The notes under the pieces were generated by a model that worked only from the letters and a program-made list of their open reading frames with translations, was not told where the DNA came from and searched no databases. DNA of 64,000 nucleotides. Origin: Tritonibacter litoralis. Lineage in GTDB: Bacteria; Pseudomonadota; Alphaproteobacteria; Rhodobacterales; Rhodobacteraceae. Made by a program: the position numbers and the translations under genes. The stretch spans positions 1 through 64,000 of the forward strand of contig NZ_WIBF01000013.1 of assembly GCF_009496005.1 (NCBI RefSeq). The letters run 5' to 3'. Positions 24,390 to 34,117 of the stretch are shown here, piece after piece. Each line of letters opens with the position of its first letter. Position 1 is the stretch's first letter.

Positions 24390-24659
24390 TTACTTGACAG
24401 TTGGAGCGGCGGATTTGGCAGGCTTCTCCTGCTGTTCGCTCCAGCTGATCCGCATGTCGACCTTGCATTGCCCGTCGGATCGGTCCGCCTTGAGCCGCAG
24501 GGTCATCAGCCCATCTACTGGCAGGACCAATTCGTCATCCCCTTCGCCCAGTGTCAGCTCTCCTTTGCTGATGCCTTTGGTCAGGGCTTCCAGCAGGGAT
24601 TTGATGGTCTTGCGATCCTGAAGCGACTCGTGGCGAAACTTGCCGTCGGCGTAACCCAT
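24390..24659 (-). CDS. amphi-Trp domain protein of the GAK cluster
   Basis: An 89-residue acidic protein starting MGYADGKFRHESLQDRKTIK. It shows the alternating beta pattern of the amphi-Trp domain (ELTLGEGDDELVLPVDG, then a strand pair ending in DMRISWSEQ with the conserved Trp73), followed by a low-complexity tail rich in K, P and A. The domain is known as a small partner in clusters with HprK-related kinases and ATP-grasp enzymes; its activity is not known. It is the last gene of the minus-strand operon, one nucleotide after the metallophosphoesterase stop. An upstream in-frame ATG exists at 24776 but lies inside the previous gene and adds unrelated sequence. Confidence 0.75.
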   Translation of the reverse strand: MGYADGKFRHESLQDRKTIKSLLEALTKGISKGELTLGEGDDELVLPVDGLMTLRLKADRSDGQCKVDMRISWSEQQEKPAKSAAPTVK

Positions 24660-24660
24660 G

Positions 24661-26034
24661 TCAGGCGAACTCTTTCTGTTGTGCGCGCGGCTGCGGCATC
24701 TGTGCCTGCAAGCCCACACAGTGTGGGTGAAAATGCTTGGCCTTTGGATAATCCGAGCTGAGGCCGATAATGTCACCCGAGGGATAAATCAAAGTTGCGC
24801 CCGCGCCAATGCCCGACAGCCCTTCGCGCGCGCGCGACGCCCGGTCCAGGGTCACATCCGCCTCAAGATGCAACAATCCGCGTTTTGCCAGCAACCGCTG
24901 GCCATTGTGGTTGTTCACATGGCCCTGAACCACCAGTTTTAGCCCAGCCTGATGCAGCAGGCGCACGCCGTGATCGGTCAGCACTTTATCTGAGGCGCGG
25001 TATTTGGTGCGCACCAGATTGGCGATAGGGCCAAAATAAAACGCAAACAGATCGCGTTTGGCATCCCGCCGGAACCGCGTGTTCACAGCTGCAGGGCCGT
25101 CCTGGACCAGCAGTTCACACATGCTGTCATCCAGACCCGCATGAACAAACAGAACAGAGCCTGTTTGCAAGATCACATCCATCCGCTGGAAAAACCAATG
25201 ATAGGGGCCGGTGGGCTGCAGGAATAATTCATGACACAGAAGGGCTGCGCCAAAGACCTCGCGCATGGTGAGGCCCGCGTCAGCCACATTCTGCGTGAAT
25301 TGGCTGCCTTTTTCGCGCAAGCGGCGCAATTCCTTGTTGATCGCTTCTGGTGCCAGATGCGGCGCGGCGGCTTTTGGAAATTCGTCAAACCAGCTTTCGC
25401 TGGGGCAGATGCGTTCGCGGCATTTGGCTTCGCTGGGCAGGCGGGTCAGACGCTGATCGCTGCCGAACCTGTGCCAGACCTCACGCAGCAGCGGCAGCGC
25501 CTTGCGACCCATGCGCACAAACAAATGTTCTGTCAGCGGATTGCGTGGTGTGGCAAGAGCGCGCACGGCAAGCATCAGGCGCAGATCGTGGTTCCCCGCC
25601 AGCAATGTGACCTTGGCACCGGTGGCAAACAGGGCAGACAGCGTGTCCAACATATCCAGATTAGAGGGACCTTTGTCCAGGCAATCGCCGCCGACCACCA
25701 CATGGGCCAGATGGCCAAACCCGGTGAGGGTGAAATCCGCAAGCCCCGCCCCGGTTCGGCAGATTACACCTGCCGCCACCAGTGATCGCAGAAAGCTTTC
25801 GGCATCCGCATGCGGGTCCGAGACAAACACAACCGGTCGCGTGGGCCAGTTCCAGTCACTGCTGTTGGATGTCGCCAGTGAGCTGTGGAATTCCTGAACA
25901 GCCCCACCCGAGTGGGGTTCTGATACAGGCCAGGCCTCACAATTCAGCGGCAACGGTTCAAAATCACAAAACGCGTCAAAAACGGGGGGCAAAAGCGGCC
26001 CGCCACGGGGCTGCAAAAGCTGAAAGTCAGCCAA
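24661..26034 (-). CDS. Calcineurin-like metallophosphoesterase of the GAK cluster
   Basis: The 457-residue protein has the metal-binding motifs of calcineurin-like phosphoesterases in order: SDPHAD (72-77, a DxH motif), GGDCLDKGP (115-123, GDxxD), GNHD (147-150), and late in the protein VVQGHVNNHNG (GH and final His). The pattern is closest to serine/threonine- or diadenosine-tetraphosphate-phosphatase-like members. The first 60 residues are variable and the middle 200 are helical with few landmarks. It would hydrolyse phosphate esters in the cytoplasm; the substrate is unknown. It starts 12 nt after the histidine phosphatase gene and belongs to the seven-gene minus-strand operon. Confidence 0.78.
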   Translation of the reverse strand: MADFQLLQPRGGPLLPPVFDAFCDFEPLPLNCEAWPVSEPHSGGAVQEFHSSLATSNSSDWNWPTRPVVFVSDPHADAESFLRSLVAAGVICRTGAGLADFTLTGFGHLAHVVVGGDCLDKGPSNLDMLDTLSALFATGAKVTLLAGNHDLRLMLAVRALATPRNPLTEHLFVRMGRKALPLLREVWHRFGSDQRLTRLPSEAKCRERICPSESWFDEFPKAAAPHLAPEAINKELRRLREKGSQFTQNVADAGLTMREVFGAALLCHELFLQPTGPYHWFFQRMDVILQTGSVLFVHAGLDDSMCELLVQDGPAAVNTRFRRDAKRDLFAFYFGPIANLVRTKYRASDKVLTDHGVRLLHQAGLKLVVQGHVNNHNGQRLLAKRGLLHLEADVTLDRASRAREGLSGIGAGATLIYPSGDIIGLSSDYPKAKHFHPHCVGLQAQMPQPRAQQKEFA

Positions 26035-26046
26035 GGCACAGGTCCT

Positions 26047-26736
26047 TTAGTCCAGCGAAGTCTCATCTTTGCGACGCACTTTCCAAGCGCCGCCGCAGTG
26101 GGACCATGTACCATCGTCATTGTAACAGAGGAGTAACGGGCGCGCATGATACATGCTGTGCGCGGCGATCTCTGGCTTGCGCATGACGCCCAACAGATAC
26201 GCCGCATGGCGAAAGGCCGCACCATGGCCAAAAGTCAGCGTCAGTTTTCCTTGGGCTTCGGTGTTCTGGGCCAGCCGCGACAGGAACCCGGCGACCCGCG
26301 CACCGGCCATCATCAGGCTTTCGGCCCCTTGAAGCGGCAGGCAATAATCGCTTTGCGATTTCCACCCCTTAGGTGGGGCTTCAAACCGCGGATCCAAAGC
26401 CAGGGCCGTCTCAATCTCGGTCAGGGTCATATTTGCGGCACTTCCCAAAGCGCGCTCTGACAAGGCCTCGGTCTGGGAGAGGGTGAAGGGCAGGTCCAGC
26501 TGATCAGTGGTGAGTTTCGCGGTTTGCCAGGCCCGCAATTGGTGGGAGGAATAGGCGGTCCGGTTCCAGGTGACGCCAAGCGGCGCGTGCAGGTCCTGCA
26601 GCAATGACGCGCAATCGCGCGCCTGTTGCTGGCCTTCCTCGGTCAAGGGATGGGGCTGCAGCGCGCTGGGCGTGTCAGCGCGCTGGTGGTAGGCGCCGTG
26701 ACGGATCAGCGCGATGTAGCCTTTGGGCGTGCTCAT
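26047..26736 (-). CDS. Histidine phosphatase family protein (RHG type) of the GAK cluster
   Basis: A 229-residue branch-1 histidine phosphatase. The catalytic IALIRHGAYH is at residues 8-17 with the RHG triad at 12-14. The family spacing continues with HPLTEEGQQQARDCASLL, the second Arg in SSHQLRAWQTA, and the second catalytic His in FGHGAAFRH near the C-terminus. All key residues are present, so it should be active on phosphohistidine or a phosphorylated metabolite. It overlaps the HprK-related kinase gene by 4 nt, which suggests coupled production of a kinase and a phosphatase. Confidence 0.82.
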   Translation of the reverse strand: MSTPKGYIALIRHGAYHQRADTPSALQPHPLTEEGQQQARDCASLLQDLHAPLGVTWNRTAYSSHQLRAWQTAKLTTDQLDLPFTLSQTEALSERALGSAANMTLTEIETALALDPRFEAPPKGWKSQSDYCLPLQGAESLMMAGARVAGFLSRLAQNTEAQGKLTLTFGHGAAFRHAAYLLGVMRKPEIAAHSMYHARPLLLCYNDDGTWSHCGGAWKVRRKDETSLD

Positions 26737-27809
26737 TCGAACAGCTTTGCGCCGATTTGGGCCAGGGCGTCAAAGTCCACCCGGCCTGAGACTTCGCTGA
26801 TGGTCACCCCGGACAAGGCCGCCAGATAAGGTGCCGGATCCAGCGGATCACTGTCCTGCAGGAACCGTCCGGTTTGATCCTGATAAAACGGACCCGCGCT
26901 TTTCATAATGGCGGACAGAAGATCCGGGCGCGTGGCGAGATCAACCTGGGTCACTTGGGTCGGCTCTGCGCCGCCGCGTTGCCAGTTCAACACCCAGAAA
27001 TCGGTCAGAGGTGCGCTGTATTGGATGCGATCTGCGCCATAAATGTCGGGCACCAACAGATCATGTTTCTCTTCCAGATCCCACAGCTCATCGGTTTCCA
27101 TGGCATGCAGGCGCTCCATCTCGGCCTTGCTCAGCATCGGATGCAGCCGCGGGTTGCCCAGAATGGTGCCCGGGTTGATGCGCGGATGTTTCGGGATGCC
27201 AAGGCCCGTTGGCACCGGTGTGCCCACCTGGACCATCAGCCGGTCGTTGGTCACAAACCGTGTGTTGTCCAAATCCATCATCCGCAGGATCGAGGTCGAC
27301 TTGCCTCCGCCCGAAAGACCGGCAATGGCCAGAGATCGCGTGCCATTGGTTACAGCGGCGGCATGGCAGATCTGCCAGCCCTCGCGCAGGCATTGGTTCA
27401 GGATCTGGGTGTTGATGAAATTCACCACCTGATTGGGATGCGAAGCGGTTGGGCCAAAGGCGACGATATGATCTGCGGATTGTAAAAAGGTCACCCCGGT
27501 GCGCACCTTGTAGATCAGCCGCGCGTCCTGCAGATCGACATAGGCGTCCTTGCGTCCGGTTTTGCCGGGTTCGCGGGCCCAATCCTGCCAATCCGGCGCG
27601 GGATCCAGCGCCTGACCTTCCAGCACGTCAATTCGCGCATCCACCGGTCCATCGTCCGCCACTGCATCCGCAAAATAACTGCGCAGCTCGTCCATCAATG
27701 GCGGCAACGCGCGGATCTGAACCCGCAGATGCCCGACCTTCAGGGTCAAAGGGGCGGTATCGTCCAGCGCTGACCGGTCGAGGCGATTCAGAATGTCTTG
27801 GGTGTTCAT
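26733..27809 (-). CDS. HprK-related kinase B (GAK system)
   Basis: A 358-residue protein with an HPr-kinase-like P-loop, GLSGGGKSTS at 164-173, preceded by a His-Ala-Ala strand (ICHAAAVTNGTRSLAIAG region) and followed by FVTNDRLMVQ (186-195), all features of HprK-related kinase B. HPr kinase phosphorylates a Ser on HPr; the target of this branch is not known. Overlap of 4 nt on each side (26733-26736 with the phosphatase, 27806-27809 with the ATP-grasp gene) shows a tight operon. It lacks the N-terminal HPr kinase regulatory domain and a PTS neighbour, so a sugar-PTS role is unlikely. Confidence 0.82.
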   Translation of the reverse strand: MNTQDILNRLDRSALDDTAPLTLKVGHLRVQIRALPPLMDELRSYFADAVADDGPVDARIDVLEGQALDPAPDWQDWAREPGKTGRKDAYVDLQDARLIYKVRTGVTFLQSADHIVAFGPTASHPNQVVNFINTQILNQCLREGWQICHAAAVTNGTRSLAIAGLSGGGKSTSILRMMDLDNTRFVTNDRLMVQVGTPVPTGLGIPKHPRINPGTILGNPRLHPMLSKAEMERLHAMETDELWDLEEKHDLLVPDIYGADRIQYSAPLTDFWVLNWQRGGAEPTQVTQVDLATRPDLLSAIMKSAGPFYQDQTGRFLQDSDPLDPAPYLAALSGVTISEVSGRVDFDALAQIGAKLFE

Positions 27810-28681
27810 TGGGTGATCTCAGCAATAACGTGGTCGGTCACCAGGGCTGCGGCATCCAGGCCACAGCCATCGCGCACGCCGCGGAAGCCACCAAAGGCCG
27901 AGACTTCAAACACAATCGGCCCCTGATCGGTCAACGCCACATCGACGGTTGTAAAACTCAGTCCAAAGGGCGCTTGGGCACGGCGTGCCAGTTCGATCAG
28001 CGCGGCATCGGGTTCAAACGGTGCATATTTGCCGCCCGCGTGAATGGTGGTGTTCCATGTGTCCGAGCCTGAGACCCGCGCATAGGTGCACAGGTATTCG
28101 CCGTTCAGAAACACCATGCCCAGATCCTGACCAGACAGATCCAGTTTTTCTTGAATGTACATCACCTGGTGTTCAGCAGAAAAGGCATCGATGGCCGCGC
28201 TGTCGCCTGCATCGATCAGGGTCATCCCGCGTGCTTTGGTGGAATAGAGCGGTTTGAACACCGCGCTGCCAAAGTCATTGACGGCAGCCAGCGCAGCGGC
28301 CTTGTCCTCTGTCACCACAGTGCGCGGCATGGGGATGTCCGCCATGCGCAAAGAGACCGTGCAGGCCAGCCGGTCGATCAGCCGAATGATCGCTTCGGGG
28401 CGCGAGAACACCTTGACGCCTTTGGCTTCGGCCAGGCGCAACAGTTCTAAACGGTCCAAGACCTCGGGGCTGTAGATCTCGCTGATCTTTTTGATGATCA
28501 ACGCATCATAGGTACACAGATCCTCACCCGCGTGCATCAGACGGCCCTGATCCAGATCCAGCGCCACGGCTCCCATGTCGATCACCCGACGAAAGCCCGT
28601 TTTGGCCTCAACCGCATCCGCCAAGGCTTCGGTGGACCATTTGCCGGGAATACCAATCACCCCGATTTTGAGTTCAGTCAC
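27806..28681 (-). CDS. GAK system ATP-grasp enzyme (RimK-like)
   Basis: The 291-residue protein starts at a GTG (28681): MTELKIGVIGIPGKWSTEAL. It has the RimK-like ATP-grasp order: a small N-terminal domain, the SLRMADIPMPRTVVTEDKA segment leading to the ATP-binding FGSAVFKPLYSTKARGM, and FTTVDVALTDQGPIVFEVSA with the Mg-binding Asp/Glu/Ser positions near the end. ATP-grasp enzymes join a carboxylate to an amine or thiol, or less often phosphorylate a substrate. Which applies here is unknown. It overlaps its neighbours on both sides (8 nt and 4 nt). Together with the kinase and amphi-Trp genes it defines the GAK cluster. Confidence 0.82.
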   Translation of the reverse strand: MTELKIGVIGIPGKWSTEALADAVEAKTGFRRVIDMGAVALDLDQGRLMHAGEDLCTYDALIIKKISEIYSPEVLDRLELLRLAEAKGVKVFSRPEAIIRLIDRLACTVSLRMADIPMPRTVVTEDKAAALAAVNDFGSAVFKPLYSTKARGMTLIDAGDSAAIDAFSAEHQVMYIQEKLDLSGQDLGMVFLNGEYLCTYARVSGSDTWNTTIHAGGKYAPFEPDAALIELARRAQAPFGLSFTTVDVALTDQGPIVFEVSAFGGFRGVRDGCGLDAAALVTDHVIAEITQ

Positions 28682-30311
28682 TGAACAGCTCCTTTATCGG
28701 CAGTTTGAGCCGCGCTTCTTTTCCTTGGGGACAATGTACCGCCTGTTCCAACAGGTAACGGGCGCGGATCATCATCCGGCGGGCGTGGGCCTTGTCAAAA
28801 ACAAAGCGGGTGGAAGAGGCGAAACTGCGTGCAAGCCCCAGGGCCAGCCGGTATTCAAAACCGCTGTCGCCTTGGGATTTGGCAAATTTCGCCGCCATTT
28901 TGTGGAAGTCACTTGCGACGGTTGCAACCCGTCGCCGGATGTCTGAGTCCTGAATTTGCAGACGGTAATTTGACACCATAAAGACCGAAACATCCTGAAC
29001 GTAATCCATATAACGCGAGCGATGCAGGTCGATGAAGTGGATCCGCTTGTCGCTGCTGTCAAAGATCACATTGTCCAGGTTGAAATCGCCATGGATGTGC
29101 ACGGAAAACGGCGCGGGCAAGGCGTTTTCACGGGTTTCGGCCTGTTTCACAAGGCTCTCGAAACTGGGGCGTTGCAGGTTGCCGATATGCATGGATTTGG
29201 TGCGAAACTCAGGGTGCACGCGGTGGACGCCTGCCATACGCGCACGCAGCTGTTTCATGGATGCCATTTCTGCTGGATCATCATGGCGCGTGCGCTTCCA
29301 GACATCGCGCAGGGTGCGCGACAGCGCGGTTTGCGCCTGGGCCAGGGTTGCGTCATCTTCGTTCAGCAGGACATGTTCAAAGGTCTGACCTTGGAGGTAC
29401 TCGATCAACAAAGCGGCGGATTGGCCGTTTTTCTTGTATGACAGGATCTTGGGCGCAAGGCCCGGATAGATCGCTTCCCAGCTTTTGACGCCTGCGCGCT
29501 CTTCCTTGACCTTTTCCAGCTCACCATCCTTGAACACCGCATCAATCTGATCACGCGCGCCGGATTTTGACCGGATCGCAGAAATTGCGCTGCCTGACCG
29601 GGTTTCGGCCAAAGGTTCAAGCGCGACGTCCTCATGGTCGCCATCGGCATCGGACAGGATGTTTTTCAGGGTGAAATAGCGGTCAAAATGCACCGATTGC
29701 CCAATGGACACAGACAAGATCGCCTCGCTGATGCCTTGGATCGCCTCGCCCATGCGGCGGACCTCATTGGCAGCCAACAGGCTGTTGGACAGATCCTCGG
29801 TCTGTTTCAGCTTGCGCATGTCACGGGTGAGGGTGCGAAACAGCTGGTCATAAAGCGCGTCCAAATCTGTTTTGACTTGTCCCATCTTGACGGCGCGCTC
29901 GCTGTCGCGGGCTTCGATAGCGGGGATGATATCCTTGATCTGTTTGCGCAGGATTTTGATGGTTTTGGGATAGGCGGCTGGGCGCAAGAGTTCGGGGCGC
30001 GCAACATCTTCGGCGTGTTGCAGGCAGCGCCGCGCCATCCGGGCAATCAAATCCAAGTTCTGCGCCACCAGCGCGCAATTGTGCATCAAAAGCTGGGTAT
30101 CGCGGCGGGTCTTTTTGCCTTTGATCGCGTCCTGACACCCACGTTGGACCCGCGACCACAGGTTATAGGAATAGCCCGCCCGCAGGATCACTTTTTGCGC
30201 GCGCGCCGGTTGTGGGTCGTCAAAATAGGCCTCAAGGCTGGTCAGCTGACCATCCAGTTCGGCGCACAGAAAATGCAAGTTCTCGCTCACAGAGCGCGGC
30301 AGACTACCCAT
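28674..30311 (-). CDS. PhoU-like domain fused to an aminoglycoside-phosphotransferase-like kinase (GAK cluster)
   Basis: A 545-residue two-part protein. Residues about 75-215 are all helical with the paired-repeat look of PhoU: an AQNLDLIARMARR segment and, later, LAANEVRRMGEAIQGISEAI. The C-terminal half (about 240-520) has the kinase motifs of the APH/choline-kinase fold: the catalytic loop HGDFNLDN (407-414) and the metal-binding FIDLHRSRYMDYVQD (426-440). I use the ATG at 30311; a TTG precedes it. The gene overlaps the Nudix gene by 8 nt and the ATP-grasp gene by 8 nt. PhoU proteins link phosphate transport to regulation, so this kinase may respond to phosphate status; that link is inference. 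The substrate is unknown. Confidence 0.72.
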   Translation of the reverse strand: MGSLPRSVSENLHFLCAELDGQLTSLEAYFDDPQPARAQKVILRAGYSYNLWSRVQRGCQDAIKGKKTRRDTQLLMHNCALVAQNLDLIARMARRCLQHAEDVARPELLRPAAYPKTIKILRKQIKDIIPAIEARDSERAVKMGQVKTDLDALYDQLFRTLTRDMRKLKQTEDLSNSLLAANEVRRMGEAIQGISEAILSVSIGQSVHFDRYFTLKNILSDADGDHEDVALEPLAETRSGSAISAIRSKSGARDQIDAVFKDGELEKVKEERAGVKSWEAIYPGLAPKILSYKKNGQSAALLIEYLQGQTFEHVLLNEDDATLAQAQTALSRTLRDVWKRTRHDDPAEMASMKQLRARMAGVHRVHPEFRTKSMHIGNLQRPSFESLVKQAETRENALPAPFSVHIHGDFNLDNVIFDSSDKRIHFIDLHRSRYMDYVQDVSVFMVSNYRLQIQDSDIRRRVATVASDFHKMAAKFAKSQGDSGFEYRLALGLARSFASSTRFVFDKAHARRMMIRARYLLEQAVHCPQGKEARLKLPIKELFSD

Positions 30312-30765
30312 CAAAGGTCCCCAGATATTCAGTTTTCAAGTCTGCGCGCAGATGCGGCGCATAGGCAGGTCGGAACAAATCGGCCTCTGTCACAGGGTCA
30401 GCCCAGCGGGTGGCGATTTGCGACGGATCCGGGTGTGGGCCTACGGCAGGCTGATAAGTTTCGTCAACCGTGCACAGAAACAGAATTTCCATTTGATGAC
30501 GCAGGCCTGTTTCTTTGGGTTTAAAAACATCGGCAACGGCCAACAGCTGGCGGGGCACAACATCTGCGCCCACCTCTTCGAAACATTCGCGCTTCAATGC
30601 TTGTGTCAAGGTTTCCCCTGCCTCTTGCTTGCCGCCGGGAAGGGTCAAATAGGTCCCTTTGCCCGGTTTTTCCTTTACTTGCACCAGCACGCAACCTGCG
30701 CGCAAAACGACAGCCCGGACACAGGGCCGGATCGGTTCCAGGACGATGTGGTTACTCATGCTCAT
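30304..30765 (-). CDS. Nudix hydrolase of the GAK cluster
   Basis: A 153-residue Nudix protein with an intact Nudix box, GX5EX7REUXEEXGU, at residues 45-67 (GGKQEAGETL to EEVGA), containing all the catalytic Glu residues. Nudix enzymes hydrolyse nucleoside or inositol diphosphate linkages. The start is MSMSNHIVLEPIRP at 30765 or two codons later at 30759; no clear shine-dalgarno separates them. It is the first gene of the seven-gene minus-strand operon and is divergent from the CofD-like gene, with about 67 nt between, which must hold both promoters. Confidence 0.8.
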   Translation of the reverse strand: MSMSNHIVLEPIRPCVRAVVLRAGCVLVQVKEKPGKGTYLTLPGGKQEAGETLTQALKRECFEEVGADVVPRQLLAVADVFKPKETGLRHQMEILFLCTVDETYQPAVGPHPDPSQIATRWADPVTEADLFRPAYAPHLRADLKTEYLGTFDG

Positions 30766-30832
30766 TGCGTAATAGGATTGTCTTGCAAAAGGTATATGAT
30801 AGTGCGGACCAAACGAGTTGGAGATGATCTCA

Positions 30833-32020
30833 GTGGCGAACCTGAAACTCACCCGTAAGGTCGAGCTGCCGGACACATTGCGTGTTGCGCGCGCCAAAAG
30901 CCTCCCGAATATGGGCCCGCGTTTGTTGTTCTTCAGCGGCGGGAGTGCCTTGAACGACGTGTCCCGTGCGTTAAAGCATTATACGCATAATTCAATGCAT
31001 TTGATCACCCCTTTTGACAGCGGTGGCAGTTCTCAGGTCTTGCGAGAGGCGTTCGACATGCCGGCCGTCGGGGATTTGCGCAGCCGCCTGATGGCCCTGG
31101 CCGATGAAACGGTGATGGGGCAGCCGGATATCTATCGTCTGTTTACCTATCGCTTTGCCAAGGATGCCGGGCCAGAGGTGTTGCAGGAAGAGTTCACGAC
31201 GCTTCTGACTGGGCGCCACCCTTTGATGCGTGCGATTTCACAACCGATGCGCAGTTTGATTTTGACCCAGCTCAAACAGTTCGAAAGCCGCCGCCCTCCG
31301 GAATTTTCCTTTGCAGGGGCCAGTATCGGCAACCTTATCCTGGCGGGCGGCTATCTGGCCAATGAGCGCGCATTGGAGCCTGTGTTGTTCCTGATGTCCA
31401 AAATGGTTGCGGTGCAGGGCACGGTGCGGTCGATCATTGACCGCAATCTGGATCTGGGTGTTGTTTTAAATGATGGCACCACCATCATTGGCCAGCGCAA
31501 TATCACCGGCAAGGAGGTCGCGCCGATCCATGACCGGATAAGCGAACTGTTTCTGGTTGAAGACGGCAAACGCGTGGAACGCGACGTTGTCAAACTGCCA
31601 AAACGCAACCGCAAGCTCATCAAAGAGGCGGATTTGATCTGCTACTCGCCGGGCAGCCTTTACACATCTGTTCTGGCCAATCTTCTGCCGCTGGACACCG
31701 GGCTGTCGATTGCCCGTCGCCATGTGCCCAAAGTGTACATCCCAAGCCTTGGGGCTGATCCGGAATGTCCGGGCATGACATTATTGGATCAGGTGGACGC
31801 GTTGATTGCAACATTGCGTGCGGATGCGGGTGGCAATTGCCCAACCGATGCGCTGTTGTCGGTGGTCCTGTGTGATGGCGCGGCCTTTGACCCCAGGATT
31901 GCCAATAGGATCCAGGAAAAACACAACGTGGCCTGTGTTGCAGTGCCGCTTGCACGCCGGGACCGTGCGGATCGTTATGACCCGGATTTGGTCAGCGCGG
32001 CCTTGATCTCCATGGTCTAA
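30833..32020 (+). CDS. GAK system CofD-like protein
   Basis: A protein of about 395 residues of the CofD/YvcK fold. The signature motifs are FSGGSALN (34-41), ITPFDSGGSS (58-67) and VGDLRSRL (79-86), and a later SPGSLYTSVLANLLP. CofD transfers phospholactate to the cofactor F420 precursor and YvcK binds UDP-sugars; no F420 genes are here, so it is named CofD-like only. The start is uncertain: GTG at 30833 has GGAG 9 nt upstream, an ATG at 30824 has GGAG directly against it. It is divergent from the Nudix-led operon and is followed after 87 nt by the phosphatase-Nudix fusion gene. Confidence 0.78.
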   Translation: MANLKLTRKVELPDTLRVARAKSLPNMGPRLLFFSGGSALNDVSRALKHYTHNSMHLITPFDSGGSSQVLREAFDMPAVGDLRSRLMALADETVMGQPDIYRLFTYRFAKDAGPEVLQEEFTTLLTGRHPLMRAISQPMRSLILTQLKQFESRRPPEFSFAGASIGNLILAGGYLANERALEPVLFLMSKMVAVQGTVRSIIDRNLDLGVVLNDGTTIIGQRNITGKEVAPIHDRISELFLVEDGKRVERDVVKLPKRNRKLIKEADLICYSPGSLYTSVLANLLPLDTGLSIARRHVPKVYIPSLGADPECPGMTLLDQVDALIATLRADAGGNCPTDALLSVVLCDGAAFDPRIANRIQEKHNVACVAVPLARRDRADRYDPDLVSAALISMV

Positions 32021-32107
32021 GGGGCCGGGTTTCGCGCTGGATCTGACCGGACCTGACCCGGCGTGTGTTTTCTGCTATGCTCCCTGCCAGACGGAAAGGA
32101 GCGGAGG

Positions 32108-33064
32108 ATGACACACCATCGAACCCTGATACTGATCTGTCATGGCAAAACAGAGCCCGATTGGCAAGGCGAGGATATGTTGCGCCCATTGCGCCCCTCG
32201 GCCAAACGCGCGGCGCAGAAGTTTGGCTCTTTTCTGCTGGAACATCAGATCGACTGCCCTGTGCTGGCCTCCCCTGCGGTGCGGACGCGCCTGAGCGCGG
32301 AAAAAGCGGCCAAGGTCTGCGGCAAGCCCGTGCGGCGTATCCAATACGACAAATGGCTTTATCGACCGGGCCTGCCAGAGCAGATCGACATTCTGTCCCG
32401 CCACTTGATGCGCAATGATCTCATCTATTTTGGCCATGCTGCGGCGATGCAGGATCTGTTGCTGCATTTGGTTGGAGAGGTTGCGGCTGCGCACTTTGGG
32501 CTGGCCTGTCTGGCGCAGCTGTCAATTGAATTGGACGGGCGCACGGGGCGAATCGCGGCGGCAGAGCTTGACCGGATCAAAAGCGACAGGGCCTTGCCGG
32601 ACGGGTTCCCCTTTCCGGCTCCGGGATCCGATGAACGCCGTCCCCGGCCTGCCTATTACTATACCCAGTCTGGCGTCGTGCCCTATCAGTTGACCAAGGA
32701 CGGTGCGCGGATCTTGTTGATTTCAAACAAGAGCCGCCAACGTTGGGGGGTGCCAAAAGGGATTTGCGAACCGGGCTTGTCGCCCCAGGTCTCCGCCGCC
32801 AAGGAAGCGCTGGAGGAAGCCGGAATAACCGGTCCCGTGTCGGATCATGTTCTGGGTCATTACAAAGTGGCCAAGTGGGGCGCCGTGTGTTCTGTCCAAC
32901 TGCATGCGATGCGCGTGGAGGGGCAACTGGATAACAGCGAATGGGCTGAAAACCGCAGGGCGCGGGCCTGGCATCCGGCGGATCAAGCAGCGGCCCATGT
33001 TCACAACCCATCCTTGTCGGGGCTGATCGCATCGTTTTCTCAGACCATTTCGCATCGGATCTGA
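32108..33064 (+). CDS. SixA-like histidine phosphatase domain fused to a Nudix domain (GAK cluster)
   Basis: The 318-residue protein starts MTHHRTLILICHGKTEPDWQ after a good shine-dalgarno (gcggagg). Residues 1-150 are SixA/phosphoglycerate-mutase-like, but the catalytic RHG reads CHG (11-13): the Arg is Cys (TGT, one base from CGT). The second catalytic His is kept in FGHAAAM (109-114). Residues 180-318 are a Nudix domain related to diphosphoinositol or ApnA hydrolases (RWGVPKGICEPGLSPQ); in its Nudix box the first Glu is Leu224 and the Arg is Lys232, while Glu233, Glu236 and Glu237 remain. Mycobacterial MutT1 joins the same two domains in the opposite order. Activity may be altered or lost. 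Confidence 0.75.
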   Translation: MTHHRTLILICHGKTEPDWQGEDMLRPLRPSAKRAAQKFGSFLLEHQIDCPVLASPAVRTRLSAEKAAKVCGKPVRRIQYDKWLYRPGLPEQIDILSRHLMRNDLIYFGHAAAMQDLLLHLVGEVAAAHFGLACLAQLSIELDGRTGRIAAAELDRIKSDRALPDGFPFPAPGSDERRPRPAYYYTQSGVVPYQLTKDGARILLISNKSRQRWGVPKGICEPGLSPQVSAAKEALEEAGITGPVSDHVLGHYKVAKWGAVCSVQLHAMRVEGQLDNSEWAENRRARAWHPADQAAAHVHNPSLSGLIASFSQTISHRI

Positions 33065-33161
33065 TGTGCTGCGGATCAACCGTTTCGGCCGAAGGGGGCG
33101 TTAACGCAAATTGTGTCCAAGAATTGCGCGCCCCTTCCCGATGTGATTAAATTTTGTGCAT

Positions 33162-33188
33162 CGTCGCGTTGGGTTGGGTGCCGCGACG
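33162..33188 (+). other. Inverted repeat upstream of ureD
   Basis: A 7-bp perfect stem cgtcgcg (33162-33168) with cgcgacg (33182-33188) closes a 13-nt loop in the 180-nt gap before ureD. It has no T-run, so it is more likely a leader structure or regulator site than a terminator. Confidence 0.3.
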
Positions 33189-33244
33189 CAGGGGAAATAG
33201 TCAAGACGCTGAAGAAATGGTCAATCTGTGTCGGAACTCCTTTG

Positions 33245-34117
33245 ATGACAGGTGAGACAATTACTGTTTGCGCGCCCATAACGCTGGCATCAGCTAATGA
33301 AACGGCACTGCAGCCGCCGCGCTCGGTCGGGCAAGCGCAGGTTTCAAGCCGCCTGTTGCAACAGGCCCGTGGCGCGACCTCCGTTCTGGGTGAACTTTTT
33401 CAAACGGGCGCTTTGCGTCTGGTCTTTCCCCATGGGCGTAGGGATCTGGAAGCGGTCATGGTCAACACCTCCGGCGGCATTACGGGCGGCGACCGATTTG
33501 AGGTGACAGCGACCGCTGAGGCGGGCAGCCAATTGACGATCACCACCCAAGCGGCTGAACGTGCCTATCGCGCCCCTGTGGGACAGATTGGGCAGCTGAC
33601 CACCAACTTGAGAGTTGAAGAAGGGGCGTTTCTGCGCTGGTTGCCGCAAGAGACCTTGATTTTTGAAGGCTCCGCATTCCGCCGCCGCCTGTCCGTTGAT
33701 CTGGCCGAGACCGCGCGGTTTCTGATGGTGGAGCCATTGGTGTTTGGCCGCACCGCGATGGGGGAGACGGTGCATAACGCCCGGCTGTGGGACCGGATCG
33801 CGCTGCGCCGTAACGGCGTGCCCATTTATCTGGATGGTCTGGAGATGGGACCGGACATTCAGGCCGAATTGAACCGGCCCGCCGTGGCCGGTGGCGGATG
33901 TGCCATGGCCTCTGTTGTCTTTGTATCGCCGACGGTGGAGGCGCTGATTGATCCGCTGCGCGAACTGTTGCCTGAAACCGGTGGTGCCTCCTTGCTGGGG
34001 GAGGATGTGATGGCGCTGCGGATTGTGGCGCGTGACGGGTTTCAGCTGCGCAAATCCCTGGTGCCGATATTGGACATGCTGACCGAGCACAGCCTGCCGC
34101 GCAGTTGGCGGCTGTGA
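33245..34117 (+). CDS. ureD: Urease accessory protein UreD
   Basis: The 290-residue protein has the UreD pattern: LRLVFPHGRRDLEAVMVN, then TSGGITGGDRFEV (family signature) and ERAYRAPVGQ, with LRWLPQETLIFEGSAFRRRL. UreD binds apo-urease and guides nickel delivery with UreF and UreG. The ATG at 33245 was chosen because upstream in-frame sequence has no UreD similarity. It opens the urease operon, 34 nt before ureA, in the order usual for alphaproteobacteria. Confidence 0.93.
   Translation: MTGETITVCAPITLASANETALQPPRSVGQAQVSSRLLQQARGATSVLGELFQTGALRLVFPHGRRDLEAVMVNTSGGITGGDRFEVTATAEAGSQLTITTQAAERAYRAPVGQIGQLTTNLRVEEGAFLRWLPQETLIFEGSAFRRRLSVDLAETARFLMVEPLVFGRTAMGETVHNARLWDRIALRRNGVPIYLDGLEMGPDIQAELNRPAVAGGGCAMASVVFVSPTVEALIDPLRELLPETGGASLLGEDVMALRIVARDGFQLRKSLVPILDMLTEHSLPRSWRL

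Follow-up and report, generated by a model that had tools for sequence, protein, structure and literature searches.

Gene Content of the GAK Cluster

A nine-gene cluster of the GAK type at nt 24390–33064 was examined in a 64,000 nt stretch of Tritonibacter litoralis DNA (contig NZ_WIBF01000013.1; hereafter, the window). All nine open reading frames (ORFs) were confirmed at the positions given in a preliminary description of this DNA, as was their arrangement in two divergent units, with seven near-touching genes on the minus strand and two genes on the plus strand. The features of the locus are:

24390..24659, minus strand: amphi-Trp domain protein, 89 aa (TIGR04354; alignment with relatives)
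24661..26034, minus strand: ApaH/PPP-type metallophosphoesterase, MPE (Metallophos, conserved residues)
26047..26736, minus strand: histidine phosphatase HisP, branch 1 (Pfam, conserved residues)
26733..27809, minus strand: HprK-related kinase B (TIGR04355; predicted PEPCK-like whole-chain fold, HprK-like P-loop core)
27806..28681, minus strand: GAK ATP-grasp enzyme, RimK/MptN/LysX-like (TIGR04356)
28674..30311, minus strand: PhoU-like domain fused to an APH-type kinase (Pfam PhoU and APH in one protein)
30304..30759, minus strand: Nudix hydrolase that heads the minus operon, optional member (Pfam)
30785..30802, minus strand: stretch CTATCATATACCTTTTGC with a weak, non-significant likeness to the Pho box (p = 0.096), at −43 relative to the Nudix start
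30824..32020, plus strand: GAK system CofD-like protein, optional member (TIGR04357; solved relatives of UPF0052/YvcK type)
32108..33064, plus strand: SixA-like domain fused to a DIPP-like Nudix domain, optional member (CHG for RHG)

Four of the proteins scored above the curated cut-offs of the NCBIfam GAK and amphi-Trp models in hmmscan searches: amphi-Trp (TIGR04354) with 64.5 bits (cut-off 31), HprK_rel_B (TIGR04355) with 312 (cut-off 200), grasp_GAK (TIGR04356) with 455 (cut-off 300) and CofD_rel_GAK (TIGR04357) with 468 (cut-off 340). Pfam matches to the other proteins were PhoU and APH in a single chain, Nudix in two proteins, His_Phos_1 in two and Metallophos. With all four named families (TIGR04354–TIGR04357) above cut-off in one cluster, and in the gene order seen elsewhere, the earlier identification as a GAK system stands; judged by these family matches, the locus is a member of a named NCBIfam system without an assigned function. 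The copy described here has all nine members, whereas many other GAK loci lack the CofD, Nudix or SixA-Nudix gene. Nothing on the GAK system was found in the open literature under the NCBI names, a search that did not cover subscription papers.

Alignment with relatives placed the likely start codons of four genes inside the mechanically called ORFs: ATG 24659 for amphi-Trp, ATG 30759 or 30768 for the Nudix gene, ATG 30824 for CofD and ATG 32108 for SixA-Nudix. The inward shift reduces amphi-Trp to 89 aa and leaves a divergent gap of about 55–64 nt between the Nudix and CofD genes. On the minus strand, amphi-Trp and MPE are separated by 1 nt, and the junctions upstream of HisP overlap by 4, 4, 8 and 8–11 nt. 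The earlier figure of at most 12 nt for any overlap or gap in this operon holds if MPE starts at TTG 26034, 12 nt from HisP, but not if it starts at TTG 26016, the start preferred after alignment, where the gap is 30 nt.

Recurrence, Core Genes and Distribution

The cluster was compared with 30 other loci (designated L with a number), 24 of them from a scan of genome contigs with the ATP-grasp protein and six from Rhodobacteraceae genomes. Counting the window, the ATP-grasp and HprK-B genes are present in 31/31 loci, figures that are partly by construction since the loci were located via these two genes. PhoU-APH and amphi-Trp are each found in 30/31 (L059 is cut by a contig end), and HisP and MPE in 29/31. 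The Nudix (23/31), SixA-Nudix (22/31) and CofD (20/31) genes are optional, and gene order is the same in the 30 other loci. A later set of twelve loci (L176–L187), located via HprK-B, gave a similar picture: HprK-B and MPE in 12, PhoU-APH, ATP-grasp and HisP in 11 and amphi-Trp in 10, with SixA-Nudix in five, CofD in two and Nudix in one; two loci of this set are truncated, L178 at the start and L184 at the end. On these counts, the fixed core is the PhoU-APH kinase, the ATP-grasp enzyme, HprK-related kinase B and amphi-Trp. The repeated co-occurrence of the GAK families claimed in the preliminary description is seen in both sets, for CofD only in part.

HprK-B and ATP-grasp are present in the identical 7/198 Rhodobacteraceae genomes which, together with the order recurring in 30 loci, argues that the cluster is held together beyond chance. 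Amphi-Trp was found in 10/198 of these genomes, seven of them GAK carriers, so that few genomes of the family have it outside GAK. In the window's genus, 8/18 genomes carry HprK-B. A class sample of 142 genomes contained a single ATP-grasp protein passing the cut-off, that of the window itself, and a phylum sample had HprK-B in 16/398 genomes, 14 of them above cut-off. Named carriers include Tropicimonas, Nioella, Onishia, Thalassospira, Marinobacter, Enterovibrio and tubeworm symbionts, and GAK is also found on plasmids of Tritonibacter, Pseudooceanicola and Qingshengfaniella (the last, from Qingshengfaniella alkalisoli, is L062/L116).

Distance matrices of all nine families, with near-identical loci left out (L044, L045, L046, L049, L051, L056 and L061), correlate pairwise with r between 0.46 and 0.94, SixA-Nudix being the weakest (r 0.46–0.65). 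The Mantel p was 0.002, the floor of 500 permutations, in 34 of 36 pairs, and 0.010 and 0.012 in the other two. Such correlation shows common inheritance and is not proof of a shared function. Spread over lineages and plasmids, and with correlated distances, the cluster is therefore an old, mobile unit.

In symbiont assemblies, PhoU-APH appears to be split (L045, 8366–10005; L061, 8084–10005), as does SixA-Nudix in L045 (12008–14014), by assembly error or decay.

Kinases, ATP-Grasp Enzyme and Amphi-Trp

Kinase B was earlier described as HprK-related, and its NCBIfam family agrees with this, but the predicted model, on fold comparison, resembles phosphoenolpyruvate carboxykinase (PEPCK) over the whole chain. 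Among the fold matches listed, PEPCK covers residues 1–358 and HprK about 144–358. The HprK-like P-loop core consists of H149, GLSGGGKST and N188-D189-R190, and comparison with 20 HprK sequences gave a match to the HprK-type P-loop core (96.6% over 54 columns). Kinase B departs from HprK in its PEPCK-like N-terminal half and in the pair of Asp residues after the P-loop, the first of which acts as the base in HprK; here it is Asn, with N188-D189 in 31/31 sequences. Compared with PEPCK itself, kinase B is shorter, has about 11% identity, and gives a profile match at the P-loop only (50% probability, 39 columns). A profile search of the PDB returned mostly P-loop noise and no HprK. The other kinase, PhoU-APH, has a match spanning full-length PhoU (4q25, E 4.5e-11), and in its APH part H407-G408-D409, N414 and D428 are invariant in 28/28 sequences.

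The ATP-grasp enzyme is homologous over its full length to the RimK/MptN/LysX ligases. Its nearest NCBIfam model after its own is MptN (E 3e-39), and it matches RimK 4iwx with E 1.5e-18. D247 and E259, corresponding to the Asp and Glu metal ligands of RimK-type enzymes, are invariant. The third metal ligand differs from those enzymes, being Ser for Asn in 26/26.

Amphi-Trp of the GAK type has the N-terminal motif FRHESLQ, with F8, H10, S12 and Q14 invariant in 30/30 sequences, as are M1, G33, L51 and W73. Both non-GAK amphi-Trp proteins compared in Rhodobacteraceae (L084 and L092) are without this motif; L084 has FSSEERK in its place, and one in-frame stop. As to an HPr-like fold of amphi-Trp, its matches to PDB profiles are weak (best E 0.0034, partial) and the structure model is too poor to use.

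One alternative is a protein switch of the HPr/NPr kind: amphi-Trp would be phosphorylated at its invariant Ser12 by kinase B and charged at the invariant His10 by a different enzyme, SixA and HisP would dephosphorylate the phosphohistidine, and phospho-amphi-Trp would control a target. Compared with the HprK system, no HPr family match was found among the nine GAK proteins, and an ordinary HprK match lies elsewhere in the genome. Such a switch is possible, if rather unlikely.

Hydrolases

Catalytic residues are conserved in APH, ATP-grasp, HisP and MPE. In MPE, which is weakly ApaH-like (E 0.0027), D67, H69, D111, N142, H143 and H366 (numbered from start 26016) are invariant in 21/21 sequences. 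HisP has invariant R12, H13, R68, E94 and H171 in 24/24, and no PDB match at 1e-8. The SixA half of SixA-Nudix was recognised with E 9.5e-17, and its Nudix half has DIPP as best PDB match (DIPP1, 9t48, E 8.6e-13). Unlike DIPP, this protein carries a fused SixA domain and a Nudix box without its first Glu, which is absent in 21/21. The SixA motif RHG is retained in 17/21 sequences, with CHG in the window and L040, RSG in L038 and RRG in L063; the window's motif is degenerate. The theme of phosphotransfer and hydrolysis with five hydrolase domains, as first proposed, is matched by the families present, but is qualified by the CHG of the window's SixA domain.

Five hydrolase domains, the DIPP/Ap4A-like Nudix and the (weakly) ApaH-like MPE could also belong to a housecleaning system, mainly hydrolysing damaging dinucleoside polyphosphates or modified nucleotides. 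This is improbable: the Nudix genes are optional, while two kinases, a ligase and amphi-Trp make up the fixed core.

An extra histidine phosphatase gene is found in L043 (15703–16452), past amphi-Trp and before a Na/Pi cotransporter-PhoU gene.

CofD-like Protein

A profile of the CofD-like protein matched five PDB sequences of UPF0052/YvcK type at E 0.001, and no CofD structure. The best match was 2ppv (E 1.8e-29); the entries are named UPF0052 or hypothetical, and the YvcK label is taken from TIGR01826. Of the two NCBIfam models that match this protein, TIGR01826 ranks second. Pfam PF01933 covers both CofD and YvcK and does not discriminate between them. The PDB matches are thus of the same type as YvcK/GlmR (CofD-like, UPF0052), whereas the GAK CofD-like protein is a separate NCBIfam family.

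CofD was found in 14/198 Rhodobacteraceae genomes, six of them GAK carriers and eight without GAK. Three GAK genomes have it away from the cluster. When 12 GAK genomes were checked, two had CofD in the locus, three elsewhere and seven nowhere (one of these seven genomes is 83% complete). At the 11 places where CofD stands without GAK or apart from it, the only neighbours to recur in at least three loci were ABC ATPases (in 4) and short-chain dehydrogenases (in 3), by family labels that we assigned from the sequences. The preliminary description had counted a CofD-like transferase as a member of the set. Its presence in only 20 of the 31 loci, its occurrence without GAK, its absence from seven GAK genomes and its YvcK-like profile speak against a fixed membership, and weaken its candidacy as the pathway's transferase. 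YvcK binds UDP-sugars (PMC5482804).

The CofD-like protein also bears on a small-molecule cofactor or metabolite pathway, in which kinase B would make a phospho-acid by PEPCK-like chemistry, the ATP-grasp enzyme would add glutamate or another amino acid, like MptN/CofF, the hydrolases would process an intermediate linked to a nucleotide or pyrophosphate, and amphi-Trp would bind or carry. The closeness of the ATP-grasp enzyme to MptN and the PEPCK-like kinase B favour this, as do relatives of the Nudix and ApaH-type enzymes, which, by their entry names, act on nucleotides or diphosphoinositol phosphates. However, the nine family assignments include no nucleotidyltransferase for an activated intermediate, and the CofD-like protein, besides resembling YvcK, can be absent from GAK genomes. 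A pathway of this kind is a tentative alternative, on balance doubtful.

Pho-Box-like Sites

The Pho box consists of two 11 nt repeats with seven better conserved bases (PMC4415409), and its consensus is given as CTGTCAT-A(AT)A(TA)-CTGT(CA)A(CT) in PMC3465305. Two matrices were used, one of the consensus and one of 23 published E. coli PhoB sites. The control was 195 promoter-like upstream regions, and a site was counted if it scored above the control 95th percentile. Dropped from the counts were the near-identical loci already left out of the distance matrices (L044, L045, L046, L049, L051, L056 and L061), L059 and L178, in which the operon start is missing, and two duplicates with confirmed shared sequence, L142 (= L041) and L175 (= L056).

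Upstream of the first gene, the consensus matrix gave sites above control in 8/23 non-redundant loci (rank p 1e-5; 0/300 permuted motifs). When six loci of the window's genus were included, the count was 8/29 (1.5 expected) with the consensus matrix and 7/29 with the published sites, counts reached by 0/300 permuted motifs in either case. Held-out loci, compared with 57 controls, gave 3/11 with the consensus and 4/11 with the published sites; near-consensus sites were found in L185 and L186, at −74/−75. By count, Pho-box-like sites are enriched in a subset of GAK loci, while the rank tests range from p 1e-5 to 0.062. Strong sites include those of L057, L062, L064 and L185. Of nine rhodobacterial loci beginning with the Nudix gene, six give p between 0.001 and 0.032 for a site on the same strand, located between −44 and −51. 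L041, from the window's genus, reached a positional p of 0.032 only, and no genus locus with corrected starts had a Pho-box score above 5.8. None of the CofD genes that stand alone or apart from the cluster, 11 in all, reached 10.5, the 95th percentile of 302 upstream regions including within-operon ones (the best, 10.0, is intragenic), so the hint of Pho control attaches to the operon and not to CofD.

Phosphate-Related Neighbouring Genes

Relatives of CHAD, Na/Pi cotransporter or PhoU proteins are found in 12/51 GAK loci (982 kb), compared with 0/93 control loci (509 kb). CHAD domains bind polyphosphate; CHAD relatives lie beside or inside five clusters: L040 (3614–5134), L043 (2141–3709), L067 (14564–16081), L183 (12748–14379, between MPE and amphi-Trp) and L184 (1043–2587). 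The domain was identified by Pfam in L067, and the other four are relatives of the L067 protein. Na/Pi cotransporter relatives are found in seven loci, up to about 6 kb away (L042, L043, L044, L046, L058, L061 and L180), and in L053 an ABC ATPase–phoU pair, with pstB assigned by position, stands beside the CofD end.

The suggestion that phosphate status is the input gains support from the Pho-box-like sites and the CHAD, Na/Pi and phoU neighbours in part of the relatives, but no such link is visible in the window's own promoter.

Proposed Function

A reading that links the cluster to phosphate is favoured by the PhoU domain in a core kinase, the Pho-box-like sites and the phosphate-gene neighbours of a subset of loci. 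GAK may be a self-contained, horizontally moved cassette running a reversible phospho-conjugation cycle that serves phosphate homeostasis, to which we assign a probability of roughly 0.4. The PhoU half of PhoU-APH would read phosphate status or a phosphate-uptake partner. The APH kinase and the PEPCK/HprK-fold kinase B would phosphorylate, and the ATP-grasp enzyme would ligate an amino acid onto a carboxylate. The sole non-enzyme of the core, amphi-Trp, would act as receiver: it might be phosphorylated at its invariant His10/Ser12, or it might bind or carry the product. Phosphoanhydrides and phosphoesters would be stripped by both Nudix enzymes (one of them DIPP-like), the ApaH-like enzyme and the histidine phosphatases, resetting the cycle. 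The function is inferred, as are all substrates, the direction in which the cycle runs, the part played by amphi-Trp and any phosphate control in T. litoralis. The cycle differs from its near rivals, the small-molecule pathway and the HPr-like switch, mainly in the purpose given to amphi-Trp.

Several observations weigh against a phosphate-linked conjugation cycle. On the regulatory side, the window and its genus give 0/8 loci above the control 95th percentile. With the six genus loci added, the consensus rank test weakens to p 8e-4, with 3/300 permuted motifs as good, and for the published-site matrix it is 0.062, with 23/300 as good. The held-out rank tests are marginal (p 0.052 for the consensus, 0.029 for the published sites), and the two best held-out sites, L185 and L186, are from two species of one genus. 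Regarding the neighbours, the queries came from GAK flanks and 3/13 matches are self-hits; four of the 12 loci (L042, L044, L046 and L061) come from a single symbiont group; and the control is smaller in total, mostly alphaproteobacterial and taxonomically unmatched. Ten neighbour proteins of six genus loci included nothing for phosphate transport, only one more metallophosphoesterase; the annotated plasmid loci had no phosphate-transport neighbours. Regarding chemistry, the leading Asp of the HprK pair is replaced in kinase B, the EVN metal motif of the ATP-grasp enzyme is EVS (S261), and the 30 amphi-Trp sequences have no invariant Asp, Glu or Lys usable as an ATP-grasp acceptor.

By analogy, GAK could instead be a bacterial signalling system for phosphate starvation, in which a messenger of the pyrophosphate type is synthesised and degraded, PhoU is the sensor and amphi-Trp serves as a receptor or a carrier. 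The eukaryotic inositol-pyrophosphate circuit has an ATP-grasp enzyme, a histidine phosphatase and a DIPP-type Nudix hydrolase around a phosphate sensor, and GAK would then be its convergent counterpart. This messenger reading is unlikely.

With a defined core, a corrected kinase fold and a regulatory hint, GAK function can now be tested under phosphate limitation. If the proposed conjugation cycle does produce a novel phosphorylated product, whether a metabolite, a messenger or a protein mark, it would represent new biochemistry in marine bacteria.

Genomic Setting and Other Neighbouring Genes

In the window, the cluster lies between urtC, urtD and urtE on one side and urease subunit genes on the other, a setting that might suggest a function linked to urea or nitrogen. 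This setting is seen in the window only. Relatives of UrtC, UreA, UreB, UreC and the product of the gene preceding ureA were found in 0/53 other GAK loci (E 1e-15), and relatives of UrtE in 0/53 at 1e-60 (duplicates included). Sequence shared with the two nearest relatives compared runs no further than the urtE stop codon; beyond it, their contigs continue for 0.45–0.97 kb of other DNA, which holds neither GAK nor urease genes. Given the 0/53 loci and the break at the urtE stop, the urea setting is taken as chance and a urea-linked function is highly improbable. The gene between the cluster and ureA (33113–34114) is ureD by position, with no NCBIfam match at 1e-20.

The sporadic, mobile and plasmid-borne occurrence of GAK is also what an anti-phage defence island might show. 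However, PADLOC matched the Nudix protein alone, with one candidate model (E 1.6e-9), and none of the other eight, and the enzymes resemble ordinary metabolic ones, making a role in defence very unlikely.

ORF families found in at least 4/31 loci beyond the nine were ABC-transporter parts, symbiont synteny, and antisense or out-of-frame shadows. Pfam results for neighbours of the first 30 loci cover 58 proteins as a tally (25 of 81 families listed) and 30 proteins singly. Proteins of 170 aa without a Pfam match adjoin the CofD end in L050 (6448–6957) and L054 (5995–6504); the L050 protein had no relative in the loci searched, so the pair may be unrelated. In the tubeworm symbionts, L042 3703–6455 and homologous ORFs, also adjoining the CofD end, encode probable CNNM/CorC-type transporters.

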